Shown here: in pieces, positions 7,732 to 19,293 of the stretch
Position numbering within the stretch: position 1 is the stretch's first letter
How the letters are laid out: each line of letters begins with the position of its first letter
Virus record (IMG/VR): IMGVR_UViG_3300050821_009624
Span: 1 to 23,359 of that record
Length of the DNA: 23,359 bases
Source of the DNA: a virus
Strand: one strand, 5' to 3'
Program-made: the position numbers and the translations under genes
Notes under the pieces: generated by a model
Seen by the model: only the letters and a program-made list of their open reading frames with translations
Database searches by the model: none
What the model was told of the DNA's origin: nothing

Positions 7732-9879
7732 TTAAACCACGGCAAGATCAGGGTATTTCAACGGTTTGGTGCTGCCGGCATTGCGCACATTGGCGAGCGC
7801 CCAGTATCTGAGCGCGTCGGAATTATGCACAACAGCGCCATTCTCCAGCGAAAAGCAGTGTCCATCAGGAACCGTAAGGTCCCAAACGTCACTCCGCTCC
7901 GAGAGCTTTTTGACGCTTGCGATACGCAATGGCCTTGCAGGGCGAGCAGCAATAAAGATGCTGCCTGCCGTTTGCCCGAACCAGCGCAGAAAATTCCTTA
8001 CTGCACTCCAGGCACCGACGGGCTTCACGCTTCCATTTAGTCCAGGTTTGCGACTGTTTTGCCTGCCTGCTATGCCATAATCTCCCTTCAGGAGAAGCAT
8101 GCCATTCGGCCGCCCTTTGCCGGGCCAGAGGGCCGATTTCGCGGGAAACGCGAGCCCTGGCCTTTTTGAGATGATCGGTGGCAGGAAGGCATTCGAGGTT
8201 CGCCAATCGAGCGTCGTGAACGTTCCCGTCCCGGTGGTGAATGTGACAACCGGGGGGAACAGGACCGAAGGCGGCTTTCCAAACATCGCGATGAAGTTTG
8301 CGGCCACCGCGCGTCGGATACTTTTCGCTAGGCCAGACGCGATACAGTCCGCCATCGAAAAATATGGTGAGGTCGTCAAGGTAGACAGGATCGCTGAACC
8401 CGGCTGCAGGGACCGCGCGGATGTCCACCCGTTCTCCGTCAGAAATAAATGATCCGGCGTGCATTTCACCGTAAGCCCGTCGGTGAACGCCACCGCCACA
8501 AGTGGGGCATCCCGCTTCGTCAGCCTCGGGTTTGTATACTGCTTCCAACCGCATGGCGTTAGAACCTCTCCACTGCAAGGAAGGTCCTTTATCTGACGCG
8601 TTCCGTGACGCGTCAACACCATCGTCTCACCGTGAAAACACGCGTGACTCGACCAATCATGAAGCGGCCGGTCCGAGTAGGTCCGCAGGCTCTCATTCCA
8701 GCTACGCCGGTAGTTCTGCAGCGCCGAAATCCCGCGCGCGCACTTTTCGGCGTCGAACCAGCAGCGCGGTAGCAGCATCCGGGCCGCATTGATGCCGTCC
8801 TCGATCTTTTGCGACGCGATCACCGTTACGCGGTGAAACCCGAGCGAGCGCAACACCTCAAGCCGCGAACGACCGGTCCCGAGCTCGCGTGCCTCGGCGT
8901 CGTGCGGCAGGACATGCTCGCCCCATTTGTAAGGCCGCCGGTCGAGCTCGCGGGTGTACCAGTCGAGCCCGACACCGCTATTCTCTATATAATCTATAAA
9001 GCGGATCTCTTGCCCGGCGAGCTGAATGAGCCAAATCGCCGTCGCGTCGCCGATGCCGAGATCCCAGGCGGTGTGCACCGGCAGGACCGGATCGTGCAGC
9101 ACCCGGCCGATACGCTTTTCCTTTTCCGCCGCTTCCATCTGGCTGCCGTAGTAGGAACCCATGACGCCAGCGTCAAAGCTGACCAGATACTCTTGCCGAT
9201 AGCGCGCCTCGCCATCGTCCGGGCCATACTCGCGCAGCAGTTCGCGGTGCTCGACCTCGAGCTGCTCATACGTGAAAACATCGGTCTCGGTCGCGGGCAA
9301 CTGCTCGGCAAACCACGTGTCGTCCTGGTTCGCCGCCTCAAAAAACGTCGAGGCGTGGTTGCGGCCGCGCGGGGTCGTTATAAAGAGTGCCCAACCGCCA
9401 TTTTCCGCCAGGATCGGCCGCAAGTAGCCCCATGCGCTCGGATCGGCGAGCGCAAACTCGCTAAAGACGACGCCAATTGGCGGGCTGCCGACCAAGCTGT
9501 TGTAGTTATCCGAGCCGACCAGCTGCCACAGGGACCCACACTTGAACCGGATCGCCATATCGGTCTCGCGCGTCGACTCACGAAGCTCGCGCGGAAACGC
9601 CTCGTTTATCCGCCGCAGCCCGGTGTGCGGGTTGACCGCGTCCCACACCGCCTTCCTCGCCTGGTTGGCCTCGGGCAACATATGCCAATAAACCCCGACG
9701 CGGGTGTGAGCGGCGACCGCCGACCAGTGCAGGCAGACTTCGTCTTTTCCGGCCCGCCGATGCCAGATCGCAACCGCCCGCTTGCCGCCGTTTTCAAGGT
9801 ATCTGTATAGTTTCAGCTGATAGGGCCGCGGGCGCCAGTTGTTGTGCGGCAGACGGATCAGACCGTCGTCGAGCGGCAT
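7732..9879 (-). CDS. terL: Terminase large subunit precursor interrupted by an intein
   Basis: The 715-residue precursor contains a complete packaging motor/nuclease of about 442 residues after removal of a 273-residue intein. ATPase motifs: Walker A HRRAGKD (residues 40-46), a Walker B-like GVVFSE ending in Glu141, and the coupling motif FITTPRG (about 166-172). Nuclease motifs: AWDLGIGD (Asp273, Asp278), the LPHDA motif (Asp327), and SDALRY with Asp688 just after the intein. Cys414 to Asn686 is the intein, inserted inside the last nuclease motif (SSHA then SDALRY), so unspliced protein should lack a proper active site. The ATG at 9879 starts 3 bases after the stop of a tiny membrane-peptide gene and has no obvious ribosome site, suggesting coupling. 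The portal is downstream; the probable small subunit lies about 7.3 kb away. Confidence 0.92.
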   Translation of the reverse strand: MPLDDGLIRLPHNNWRPRPYQLKLYRYLENGGKRAVAIWHRRAGKDEVCLHWSAVAAHTRVGVYWHMLPEANQARKAVWDAVNPHTGLRRINEAFPRELRESTRETDMAIRFKCGSLWQLVGSDNYNSLVGSPPIGVVFSEFALADPSAWGYLRPILAENGGWALFITTPRGRNHASTFFEAANQDDTWFAEQLPATETDVFTYEQLEVEHRELLREYGPDDGEARYRQEYLVSFDAGVMGSYYGSQMEAAEKEKRIGRVLHDPVLPVHTAWDLGIGDATAIWLIQLAGQEIRFIDYIENSGVGLDWYTRELDRRPYKWGEHVLPHDAEARELGTGRSRLEVLRSLGFHRVTVIASQKIEDGINAARMLLPRCWFDAEKCARGISALQNYRRSWNESLRTYSDRPLHDWSSHACFHGETMVLTRHGTRQIKDLPCSGEVLTPCGWKQYTNPRLTKRDAPLVAVAFTDGLTVKCTPDHLFLTENGWTSARSLQPGSAILSTLTTSPYFSMADCIASGLAKSIRRAVAANFIAMFGKPPSVLFPPVVTFTTGTGTFTTLDWRTSNAFLPPIISKRPGLAFPAKSALWPGKGRPNGMLLLKGDYGIAGRQNSRKPGLNGSVKPVGAWSAVRNFLRWFGQTAGSIFIAARPARPLRIASVKKLSERSDVWDLTVPDGHCFSLENGAVVHNSDALRYWALANVRNAGSTKPLKYPDLAVV
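7889..8554 (-). CDS. HNH homing endonuclease nested out of frame inside the intein
   Basis: A 221-residue protein lies entirely inside the intein DNA, in the -1 frame relative to the terminase. It has a CPTC knuckle at residues 16-19, then an HNH core: RKLHRDVWKAAFGPVPPGCH leads into IHHRDGN (His106/His107), LANLE (Asn119) and DHLKKA (His128), matching the HNH_3-type pattern. A C-terminal zinc ribbon has Cys181/Cys184 and Cys202/203/Cys206. All expected catalytic positions are present, so it looks functional. The start is either ATG at 8554 (GAGG 10 bases upstream) or TTG at 8578 (AAAGGA 6 bases upstream). By analogy with homing endonucleases it would cut intein-less terminase genes and spread the intein; this is inferred. 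The frame is open upstream only to 8626, so an extended form starting before the intein is excluded. Confidence 0.85.
   Translation of the reverse strand: MRLEAVYKPEADEAGCPTCGGGVHRRAYGEMHAGSFISDGERVDIRAVPAAGFSDPVYLDDLTIFFDGGLYRVWPSEKYPTRGGRKLHRDVWKAAFGPVPPGCHIHHRDGNVHDARLANLECLPATDHLKKARARVSREIGPLARQRAAEWHASPEGRLWHSRQAKQSQTWTKWKREARRCLECSKEFSALVRANGRQHLYCCSPCKAIAYRKRQKALGAE
8595..8614. repeat. Hairpin just upstream of the nested HNH gene's ribosome site
   Basis: On the minus strand GACGCGT and ACGCGTC form a perfect 7-base stem with a 6-base loop. The hairpin ends 4 bases before AAAGGA (8585-8590), the ribosome site for the TTG start at 8578. It lies inside the coding sequence of the intein's N-terminal block. 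Hairpins near the ribosome site control some phage homing endonuclease genes; a role here is inference. Confidence 0.45.
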
Positions 9880-17164: not shown

Positions 17165-17644
17165 TTACGCGGACCTCTCGCGCAGCTTGAGCTGCCTGCG
17201 GCCGAGCCATTCAGATCCGCTCTTCCTGCCTCTCTTGCGGGGAACTTCGGCCTCTACCTCAGCCTCAGCGGCCGCAGCCGCTTCAGTCTCTGCCACTATC
17301 GGATTAGTTGCATCTGCCTCGATGAGCTTGGAAATGTCCAGAATTGGCCGTGCTGGCTCGAGCTGCTCACCATCGCTAAATCTAACTACTTGAACCAGAA
17401 GGGGTTTTTCCTGGTTGCCGGCAATCTCTACGCTTGCAAGGTCTGGTAAAACTTTCTTCAATAACGCGAGTGCGATGAACGCTTGCGTCCTTGTAAGACG
17501 TATATCACCCGGTTTAGGATTGTCGGGATCGATAAGCACGTACTGCTGCAAGCGTTTAATTAAAACGTACGCTTGGATATGTTCGCGAGCTTTGGTCCCC
17601 AGAATGATTGAATCGCGTGGGGCTCTGATATTACGAGCAGGCAC
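17165..17644 (-). CDS. Probable terminase small subunit, 159 aa
   Basis: A 159-residue protein starting with GTG (read as Met) PARNIRAPRDSIILGTKARE. The central part (PKPGDIRLTRTQAFIALALL followed by KKVLPDLASVEIAGNQEK) has the pattern 'lT..Q..aa..LLkk.lPDl..vE..g' that I associate with small terminase subunits of alphaproteobacterial phages, which recognise packaging sites. The second half is Glu/Ala-rich with a basic tail (RKRGRKSGSEWLGRRQLKLR) that could bind DNA. The start overlaps the helix-turn-helix gene by 14 bases. Its first 17 codons have an imperfect copy 261 bases upstream. The large subunit is about 7 kb downstream on the same strand. Family assignment is moderate. Confidence 0.55.
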   Translation of the reverse strand: MPARNIRAPRDSIILGTKAREHIQAYVLIKRLQQYVLIDPDNPKPGDIRLTRTQAFIALALLKKVLPDLASVEIAGNQEKPLLVQVVRFSDGEQLEPARPILDISKLIEADATNPIVAETEAAAAAEAEVEAEVPRKRGRKSGSEWLGRRQLKLRERSA

Positions 17645-17849
17645 ATTTAATTTCCTGGGCCATGAGCGAGCGTCGGCGAATTGTTTTGACCCAAGCTTTG
17701 GTGAGACCGAACGAGCCGGCGACGTTATTGATGCTGAAGCCTTGTTCGAGTGCGGCGAGGATTTTTTTATTGCGTTCGTCGATATAGGAGCGGTCGACGC
17801 GTTCGGTGGTGTAATTGGGGCAATTATCGTTGTAATGGGTGTAGGCCAT
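17631..17849 (-). CDS. Helix-turn-helix DNA-binding protein, 72 aa
   Basis: The start is at 17849 (MAYTHYNDNCPNYTTERVDR), where ATG overlaps the stop of an 18-residue ORF (TGATG) and GGGGA lies 8 bases upstream. Residues about 24-57 form a helix-turn-helix of resolvase/terminase type: RNKKILAALEQGFSINNVAG then SFGLTKAWVKTIRRR. Such a domain could act as the DNA-recognition half of the small terminase that follows, as a repressor, or as part of a small mobile insert. The gene sits between two copies of the same coding start, which suggests it was inserted there or captured by recombination. Confidence 0.65.
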   Translation of the reverse strand: MAYTHYNDNCPNYTTERVDRSYIDERNKKILAALEQGFSINNVAGSFGLTKAWVKTIRRRSLMAQEIKCACS

Positions 17850-17905
17850 CAGCTCGTCCCCAACAGGGCGGTATCTCGAGGTGCTCTGATGTTTCGAGCG
17901 GGCAT
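17849..17905 (-). pseudogene. 18-residue duplicate of the small-terminase start
   Basis: An ATG at 17905 opens MPARNIRAPRDTALLGTS, then a stop that overlaps the next gene's ATG. The small terminase begins with the same 11 residues after its GTG and continues SIILGT, giving 14 of 17 matching positions. Six of the first 11 codon pairs differ, all silently except ATG/GTG, so the copy is not a recent slip. It may be the remnant 5' end of a terminase gene interrupted by the helix-turn-helix gene, or a leader peptide that couples translation. No strong ribosome site is seen. Confidence 0.6.
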
Positions 17906-17935
17906 CACGATGCAACAAAATATTTCATTTAGTCG

Positions 17936-17964
17936 TTGACATTCATGCTGCGCCACGCTACATT
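17936..17964 (+). promoter_or_regulatory. Sigma70-type promoter for the plus-strand early operon
   Basis: A consensus -35 TTGACA (17936-17941) is followed after exactly 17 bases by TACATT (17959-17964), which matches TATAAT at four of six positions. Transcription would start near 17971, giving a leader of about 40 bases to the first gene at 18013. It lies in the divergent gap between the minus-strand terminase block and the plus-strand cassette. Confidence 0.72.
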
Positions 17965-18012
17965 ACAGTTATTGGAACGGACACGAACATGAACCTTTTC
18001 GGAGTTTCCCCA

Positions 18013-18186
18013 ATGACCTACTCGGTTTCTTTTCTTCCTGCGACTTCCAGTGCGGATTGGCAGGTTTCGCGGTTTTTCTCGACGCTACGTGCGGCGCGGA
18101 AGTGGGCCTCGTGGCTTGGTTCCCGGTCTTATGTAGCGCGAGCCACGATCCACCGTGGCGGGCCTGGCGGCGAGATTGTTGCCTGA
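18013..18186 (+). CDS. Small conserved phage protein, 57 aa
   Basis: I choose the ATG at 18013 (MTYSVSFLPATSSADWQVSR), which has GGAG 8 bases upstream; an in-frame ATG at 17989 would add eight residues. The second half, TLRAARKWASWLGSRSYVAR then ATIHRGGPGGEIV, matches a small protein I associate with phages of rhizobia: a helix with 'aakkWa.wL', followed by a strand pair. Function is unknown. It is the first gene behind a clear promoter, so it is likely expressed early. Confidence 0.68.
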   Translation: MTYSVSFLPATSSADWQVSRFFSTLRAARKWASWLGSRSYVARATIHRGGPGGEIVA

Positions 18187-18195
18187 GGAATCCCC

Positions 18196-18375
18196 ATGAC
18201 AAGTCGAATGGAACGAGCACAGCTCGATGCGGCGCGGGCGGGGTTACGTGAAATCTGCGAAGCCGTTCTAGCGGCCGGCGGGCAAACCCATTCTGAACTG
18301 GCGAACCGGATCTATCAAATTGCGGTGCGGACGCGGACTGTTCTGCAACCCGAGGCGACGGATGACGGCATCTGA
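18196..18375 (+). CDS. Small helical hypothetical protein, 59 aa
   Basis: The ATG at 18196 follows GAGGAA at 6-base spacing. The protein (MTSRMERAQLDAARAGLREI, then CEAVLAAGGQTHSELANRIY) is almost entirely helical with a possible helix-turn-helix-like middle (HSELANRIYQIA). It overlaps the XRE gene by 14 bases, implying coupled translation. No family is recognised. Confidence 0.65.
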   Translation: MTSRMERAQLDAARAGLREICEAVLAAGGQTHSELANRIYQIAVRTRTVLQPEATDDGI

Positions 18376-18553
18376 GCTGCGTGCGGCATTGCAGCGGCTG
18401 CGACTGCGCCAGGGTGCGTTTGCCGCATTGCTCGGCGTGCATCGGGTGACTGTAGGACGTTGGGCCAACAGCGAGCTCGAGGTGCCGGGGTATGTGGCGG
18501 CGTATTTGGCGCTGGCCGAGCGGTGTGGTGTGGAACAGGAGCAACTGAGATGA
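18362..18553 (+). CDS. XRE/Cro-like helix-turn-helix regulator, 63 aa
   Basis: The start at 18362 is supported by GAGG 6 bases upstream. The 63 residues form one compact helix-turn-helix domain: ELRAALQRLRLRQGAFAALL, GVHRVTVGRWANSELEVPGY and a final helix VAAYLALAERCGVE. The 'rQ..fA.lLGV.r.TV.rWe.ge..vP' pattern is classic for the XRE family. It could be the Cro-type regulator acting at the divergent promoter region near 17940; the target is inference. It overlaps the genes on both sides. Confidence 0.82.
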   Translation: MTASELRAALQRLRLRQGAFAALLGVHRVTVGRWANSELEVPGYVAAYLALAERCGVEQEQLR

Positions 18554-18726
18554 GACAGCAATTTGTCCCTGATGGCGAGAGTGCGCGGGCCGACGAGTCG
18601 TTTGCCGAGGCGGATTGGCAGGCGCTGGCGCTGTGTCCGTGGGCGGCTGAGGCGGTCGCCTGCGCGGGTGGCTGGCGGGTTTTCGAGAGCGTGGGCGATG
18701 CTGAGAGGTGGCGTCGGCAAGGCTAA
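18550..18726 (+). CDS. Small acidic hypothetical protein, 58 aa
   Basis: The ATG at 18550 overlaps the XRE stop (ATGA). The protein (MRQQFVPDGESARADESFAE, then ADWQALALCPWAAEAVACAG) is acidic, Trp- and Ala-rich, and ends RWRRQG. No domain is recognised. The coupling overlap and operon position support it as a real gene. Confidence 0.58.
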   Translation: MRQQFVPDGESARADESFAEADWQALALCPWAAEAVACAGGWRVFESVGDAERWRRQG

Positions 18727-18756
18727 CCGGAAGGGGAGCTGGGCAGGCAAGCCGCG

Positions 18757-19293
18757 ATGAAGATAACCACCACTGAAGGCGGCGGCACCGCGATTGATTT
18801 TGAGACTGGGGGCAATCGGCGTTGCGGCGGCTGCACGCTGTGTTGCAAGCTTCTGCCCAATGTTGCGCTCGCCAAGGTTGCTGGGGTGCGCTGTCAGCAT
18901 CAGCGGCACGCTAAGGGCTGCGCGATTTACCAGCGGCGGCCGCCTGAGTGCCAATGGTGGTCCTGCCGTTGGCTGGCTGCTGGCGAGGAAACCGCTGGGA
19001 TGGGCCGCCCCGACCGGGTGCATTACGTGATTGATGCACTGCCCGACGCGGTGCGGCTAACGCACACCGAAACCGGCGAAACAGTTGAACTCAAAGCGCT
19101 GCAGATCTGGATTGATCCGTCGTTTCCCGAGGCGGCACAGGACCCCGAACTGCGCGCTTACATGCTGCGGATGGCGAAGCTTCACGGCATGCCGAGCTTG
19201 TTGCGCTGGTCGCACCGCATTGGCACTGCGATATTCCCGCCGCCGCTCAACACCGATGGTCAATGGCACGAGGTGACCAGCGACAGTAAATGA
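18757..19293 (+). CDS. YkgJ-like cysteine-cluster protein, 178 aa
   Basis: A 178-residue protein with a cysteine array: RRCGGCTLCCKLLP (Cys23, 26, 29, 30), then Cys46 and Cys55 in RCQHQRHAKGCAIYQRRP, and Cys65 and Cys70 (PPECQWWSC). This arrangement matches the YkgJ family (zinc- or iron-cluster binding, CxxCxxCC), whose molecular role is poorly understood. The C-terminal half is a mixed alpha/beta segment (VHYVIDALPDAVRLTHTETG). AAGGGGA and AGG elements lie upstream of the ATG. The next gene overlaps its stop by ATGA. It belongs to the plus-strand early cassette. Confidence 0.78.
   Translation: MKITTTEGGGTAIDFETGGNRRCGGCTLCCKLLPNVALAKVAGVRCQHQRHAKGCAIYQRRPPECQWWSCRWLAAGEETAGMGRPDRVHYVIDALPDAVRLTHTETGETVELKALQIWIDPSFPEAAQDPELRAYMLRMAKLHGMPSLLRWSHRIGTAIFPPPLNTDGQWHEVTSDSK

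Follow-up and report, generated by a model that had tools for sequence, protein, structure and literature searches.

A duplicated small-terminase start beside a helix-turn-helix gene is probably a gene remnant at a phage mosaic joint

Mosaic joints in tailed-phage genomes come from illegitimate or homologous exchange of cassettes and have abrupt borders, a truncated gene at the joint and a working gene contributed by the incoming DNA. For T4-like phages, PMC2993671 discusses this kind of DNA replacement, with free-standing nucleases as drivers of exchange. A comparable anatomy is found in hybrid genes of fungal mitochondria (atp6, atp9, cox2 and nad3), for which PMC3630166 describes a mobile endonuclease ORF (mORF) accompanied by a foreign 3' end. 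There, the resident end is orphaned and the foreign end is used, and the duplicates are 64-81% alike in DNA with mostly silent change. None of the papers listed in our literature searches concerned a duplicated start of a small-terminase gene (terS).

We analysed a stretch of viral DNA of 23,359 nucleotides (IMG/VR record IMGVR_UViG_3300050821_009624), referred to here as the window. It contains a terS-like gene whose start is present twice, with a small helix-turn-helix (HTH) gene in between. The features of the locus are:

17849..17905, minus strand: 18-residue ORF, MPARNIRAPRDTALLGTS*, read here as an orphan 5' stub of terS from its homology to the downstream terS start and its distance from the promoter
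17631..17849, minus strand: 72-aa helix-turn-helix gene (MAYTHYND...), its start overlapping the stub stop and its end overlapping the terS start
17165..17644, minus strand: small-terminase-like gene, complete, 159 aa, GTG start at 17644, labelled from relatives that have the large-terminase gene (TerL) downstream
17936..17964, plus strand: divergent promoter-like site TTGACA-17-TACATT (10/12 matches), taken to mark the native 5' border of terS
17857..17861, minus strand: GGGGA in stub codons 15-17, a possible Shine-Dalgarno sequence for the HTH gene, from reading the sequence
17653..17656, minus strand: AGGA in the end of the HTH gene, a possible Shine-Dalgarno sequence for the terS GTG, likewise

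The HTH gene thus lies between the stub and terS and overlaps both. Its ATG overlaps the stop codon of the stub as TGATG, with the GGGGA motif seven nt ahead, and at the other end the terS GTG creates a 14-nt overlap. Both the TGATG junction and the HTH/terS overlap are present as originally predicted. The two starts are 261 nt apart (3 x 87), and the HTH reading frame remains open through the stub (ORF 17631-17918), which might in principle allow the stub and the HTH protein to be fused by a frameshift. No Shine-Dalgarno sequence was seen by eye ahead of the stub itself.

The locus shares with phage mosaic joints a remnant in the ancestral place, an abrupt end of homology and an intact homologue in relatives. 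It differs from the usual mosaic joint in that the leftover consists of 17 in-frame codons of a packaging gene, keeps its start codon and overlaps the next gene. With the fungal hybrid genes, as described in PMC3630166, it has in common a resident end duplicated by a diverged foreign end, an ORF between the two and mostly silent differences. However, in the fungal genes it is the 3' end that is replaced and the ORF encodes a LAGLIDADG or GIY-YIG endonuclease, whereas in the window it is the 5' end and the ORF encodes a small HTH protein. An uninterrupted relative and a diverged duplicated end (36/51 nt) are both found here, and the endonuclease is not; because the HTH gene has no nuclease domain, the window fails the defining test for a mORF. 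We class the locus as a probable mosaic joint that has kept a gene remnant, a tidy but rather ordinary case of phage mosaicism.

Comparison of the two terS starts confirms the coordinates and letters originally given for the stub (17905-17849) and for the terS start from 17644, with 14 of 17 residues equal when both start codons are counted as Met. At the DNA level 36 of 51 nt are equal. Codons 1-11 differ only in the start codon (ATG or GTG) and at six third positions; the six fall within codons 2-11 and all are silent, and our recount agrees with the earlier count. When six base changes were drawn at random 200,000 times, all ten residues were kept in 43 cases; an all-silent pattern would be improbable had the peptide not been under selection. 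Excluding the start residue, 13/16 positions agree, whereas the best match anywhere else in the six frames of the window has 6/16 and Markov shuffles (n=20) gave no more than 8/16. Furthermore, when the whole TerS protein was searched against the window, the stub was found at E = 4.1e-4. The E-value, the shuffles and the silent-change trials together rule out a chance match. In the 5' direction the similarity ends at the start codon and in the 3' direction at codon 17, and its longest identical run is 8 nt. Such short identical runs, together with the silent differences in codons 2-11, indicate that the peptide, and not the DNA, has been kept.

The 159-aa protein has no match in PHROGs at E<=1 and one sub-threshold match only in Pfam, and 1 of 32 family members matched PHROGs, in this case an unnamed PHROG. 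No solved structure matched the protein, and a fold search with its AlphaFold model was also empty. The model has a mean pLDDT of 69.6 and is weak beyond about residue 65, so it is weak evidence. In this model, residues 1-16 are coil and helix 1 spans 17-37, and the stub would thus correspond to the loose tail of TerS and nothing more. Gene order in relatives gives the protein its name. We listed the downstream ORFs for 18 relatives and sent 10 of them to PHROGs; all 10 of those scanned are TerL. The homologue from a Bradyrhizobium phage (WAX24409) overlaps its TerL gene. In the window, TerL lies ~7 kb further on from terS, with fibre-like genes between. Since all 10 scanned downstream genes are TerL, small terminase (TerS) is a reasonable prediction for the 159-aa gene; the original label is upheld by gene order and finds no counterpart among curated TerS models or solved folds. 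In genome contigs and plasmids, no TerS relatives were found.

The TerL gene of the window (7732-9879, minus strand) has a feature of its own, an apparent intein of ~273 residues between A413 and S687 (...HDWSSHA/CFHGETMV...VVHN/SDALRYW), with a Pfam Intein_splicing match at E 9.4e-9, just under its cut-off. The TerL of a relative, locus L005, is uninterrupted at this position. Nearly all of a 229-residue ORF (7889-8578, minus strand) that has an HNH_3 domain (E 5.4e-13) and matches a zinc ribbon falls within the intein DNA. The two reading frames differ by 2, which puts the endonuclease out of frame with its would-be intein.

A profile scan of IMG/VR provided 59 loci with TerS relatives. As a check, the original prediction had suggested looking in relatives for an uninterrupted arrangement, and this is found in L009 (contig IMGVR_UViG_3300020581_000005). 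Its terS matches the window TerS at 73% over 139 aa, and at the DNA level the two genes are ~81% similar. The L009 terS start, MPARNIRAPRDSIQLGTK (MPARNIRAPRD), is present once and has no HTH gene ahead of it. In viral contigs, L009 is the only record besides the window with the PARNIRAPRD pattern, and the terS starts of other relatives vary (MPARNRPPNAS, MATRNRPSGPT, MGARNRPPSPD). In L005, an HTH gene overlaps terS by 32 nt and has another gene in front, and there is no terS duplicate. As to whether HTH gene and terminase always occur together without a duplicate, which would have counted against the original prediction, L005 has the pair and no duplicate, and L009 has no HTH gene. We also searched 50 loci in six frames for a second copy of the first 17 residues of terS, namely the window, 48 IMG/VR loci that remained after repeats and fragments were dropped by hand, and L008. 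A second copy is present in the window alone (1/50, 14/17 residues; next best 8/17), with the reservation that several of the 50 loci are short upstream of terS and a duplicate could be missed there.

Distances to the divergent promoter separate the two copies. A divergent TTGAC-type promoter is found 14 nt from the start of terS in L009, where the site reads TTGACA-17-TATATC, and 5 nt from it in L004. In the window, the promoter is 31 nt from the stub and 292 nt from the working terS start. Thus, it is the stub that occupies the native position, with the HTH gene and working terS having come between or behind. No divergent TTGAC pattern was found within 1500 nt of the terS start, or within the available DNA, in L003, L005, L006, L013, L015 and L017; by eye, L003 and L005 have a weaker TTGCCA-17-TATATA ahead of their first ORF.

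Divergent promoter-like sites with a GCGC-containing spacer recur in this group (TTGACTTAAGCGCAGAGTGCGCATATATT, TTGACATACGCGCGGGCTGCGCTTATATC, TTGACCTATGCGCGGATCATGCATAAATG), in L009 ahead of 4001, at distances of 14 and 559 nt from the start of terS, and in L004 just before 6001. These are perhaps candidate targets of the neighbouring XRE-like regulator. In the window, a block of rightward ORFs (17989-19293, plus strand) encodes proteins of 65 aa and 59 aa, an XRE-like protein of 77 aa and a cysteine-rich protein of 178 aa (phrog_9155). A search with the 178-aa gene gave one distant locus, L072, and weak matches in unrelated phages.

We next compared the two window copies with L009 over the first 51 nt. 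Set beside the 36 identities between stub and working copy, the stub shares 37 with L009 and the working copy 40. The three lineages are therefore about equidistant, and the window copies are not sisters. No conversion border was detected inside the working terS relative to L009 (P = 0.24), with silent differences at 7/14 in codons 2-16 and 25/76 later.

A further pair of relatives shows what a border in this region looks like. In the near-identical upstream DNA of L003 and L005 (L003 1-538, L005 70-748), 318 nt at 99% identity are followed by a 99-nt identical run (L003 426-524) that spans the promoter region and eight codons of the first ORF, which begins in L003 with GTG at L003 500. The two then part abruptly into unrelated sequence, L003 continuing with a 65-residue gene and terS, and L005 with another gene, the HTH gene and terS. 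The alignment picks up again inside terS, at 80% from codon 47 on. A recent exchange probably accounts for this. Its left border falls within the first ORF beyond the divergent promoter, only a few codons from the start; it has the same geometry as the window stub and suggests exchange of multi-gene cassettes.

The slot ahead of terS is changeable in general. Eight upstream ORFs from seven relatives, chosen by eye, comprise four with nuclease-family matches, one HTH gene and three with no match. The nuclease genes lie directly before terS:

L015 3724-3972, L035 72-602, L066 2728-3099 and L067 1873-2262: nuclease-family genes

They occupy the same slot as the window HTH gene and belong with the free-standing HNH/GIY-YIG genes found by phage terminase genes, from which the HTH gene differs in having no nuclease domain. 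A pattern scan and upstream-block searches gave no parent whose intact terS begins MPARNIRAPRDTALLGT, and L009, on the terS side, is the only relative of the presumed parents recovered. The phage collection contains no DNA match to the upstream block, and in the relatives' loci compared the stub alone matched. Base composition was considered as a sign of transfer, with values of 0.511 for the HTH gene, 0.531 for terS and 0.617 for the upstream block that looked suggestive; it was dropped because low values (0.52-0.60) also occur in the relatives' terS genes and the HTH gene of L005 has 0.614.

For the HTH protein itself, Pfam gives HTH_23 at E 0.033, below the cut-off, and PHROGs gives phrog_836, a late transcriptional activator, at E 0.0027. 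The AlphaFold model has helices at residues 20-35, 40-47 and 51-70, with block pLDDT of 84-90 in residues 21-60, and the 72-aa protein is accordingly predicted to adopt a three-helix HTH fold. Foldseek matches the model to LuxR-type, sigma region 4 and recombinase HTH domains (probability up to 0.99, E >= 0.2). No nuclease domain was found by Pfam, PHROGs or in the AlphaFold model. The HTH gene of L005 is 44% identical over 41 aa and has the same place before terS, which gives two phages in which an HTH gene precedes terS. Searches of viral contigs returned L005 and a weak match in L007 only, those of genome contigs and plasmids returned none, and among phages there was one weak match, in Paracoccus phage Pkon1 (E 0.05), adjoining cro. 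The original prediction had called for HTH genes beside other genes with duplicated 5' ends, and in the viral, genome, plasmid and phage searches no such case appeared. Within the window, the HTH protein matches only itself in the surrounding DNA and there is no second HTH remnant.

We propose, with a probability of roughly 70%, that the upstream copy is a stub of the resident terS, left when the HTH-terS cassette of a related phage was joined behind it. The resident terS would originally have lain directly behind the divergent promoter. DNA exchange with a related phage carrying an HTH-terS pair would then have placed the joint after codon 17 of the resident gene, where the unstructured tail of TerS is predicted to end, presumably by non-homologous or micro-homologous joining. 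The incoming terS is complete and would have replaced the resident gene with packaging kept, and the silent differences would have built up while the two terS genes lived in separate lineages. The old start remains, and GGGGA and the TGATG overlap may now serve translation of the HTH gene. Any remaining role of the stub is probably limited to bringing ribosomes, or a ribosome-binding site that arose by accident, to the HTH start. Set against this reading, the parent with an intact terS was not found, the duplicate is known from one contig only, and the exact preservation of a peptide that is variable in other relatives also fits selection on the stub itself.

The original prediction of an insertion at a terminase start survives in part. 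A join with the 5' end supplied again by a diverged homologue agrees with the uninterrupted L009, with the stub beside the promoter and with copies that are not closest relatives; mobility of the HTH gene is not supported by L005 with its HTH gene and no duplicate, by the lack of a nuclease domain or by the lack of copies beside duplicated ends. A mobile HTH gene that targets terS starts for insertion and carries a terS 5' end with it would be a mirror image of the fungal hybrid genes in PMC3630166, and would fit both the nuclease-family genes in the same slot of four relatives and the HTH gene ahead of terS in two phages. We nevertheless think it unlikely, given a protein with no nuclease domain, no other duplicated-end insertion in the 50 loci, no further close copy in viral, genome and plasmid searches, a weak phage match that sits by cro, and no co-conversion end seen inside terS (P = 0.24). 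It is doubtful that a non-nuclease HTH cassette always brings a fresh terS start and leaves the old one as a translated, coupled leader, and we hold out little hope that such a cassette is a 5'-end-swapping counterpart of the fungal mORFs, landing between the divergent promoter and terS.

Function of the stub as a leader peptide or coupling device, in which restart at TGATG sets the HTH level or the tail peptide acts itself, draws on the TGATG overlap with GGGGA seven nt ahead of the HTH ATG, and on change in codons 2-11 that is all silent. We regard this as improbable: all 49 other loci are without a second copy, the region before the stub shows no Shine-Dalgarno sequence by eye, and selection acting on full-length terS before the join already accounts for the silent pattern. 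The direct repeat and its spacing of 261 nt, a multiple of three, could also come from tandem duplication of the terS start in place followed by drift. But the similarity stops at the start codon and codon 17, no second HTH remnant accompanies it, and we rejected this origin, a very remote prospect, on finding the copies no closer to each other than to L009. Phage packaging sites are often in or near terS, and the repeated DNA might be such a site or an operator, with the coding match a by-product. This we also rejected, as hardly credible, on the longest run of 8 nt and the differences at silent positions.

A working mobile HTH cassette would be the more surprising outcome. A stub of the resident terS, if this reading is right, would pin a recombination joint to a single codon of a packaging gene, and the locus would show cleanly how gene remnants at mosaic joints can be read, with a caution against the label "leader peptide". 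The slot between the promoter and terS would then be a site of repeated exchange in this phage group, in which regulators and nucleases alternate.
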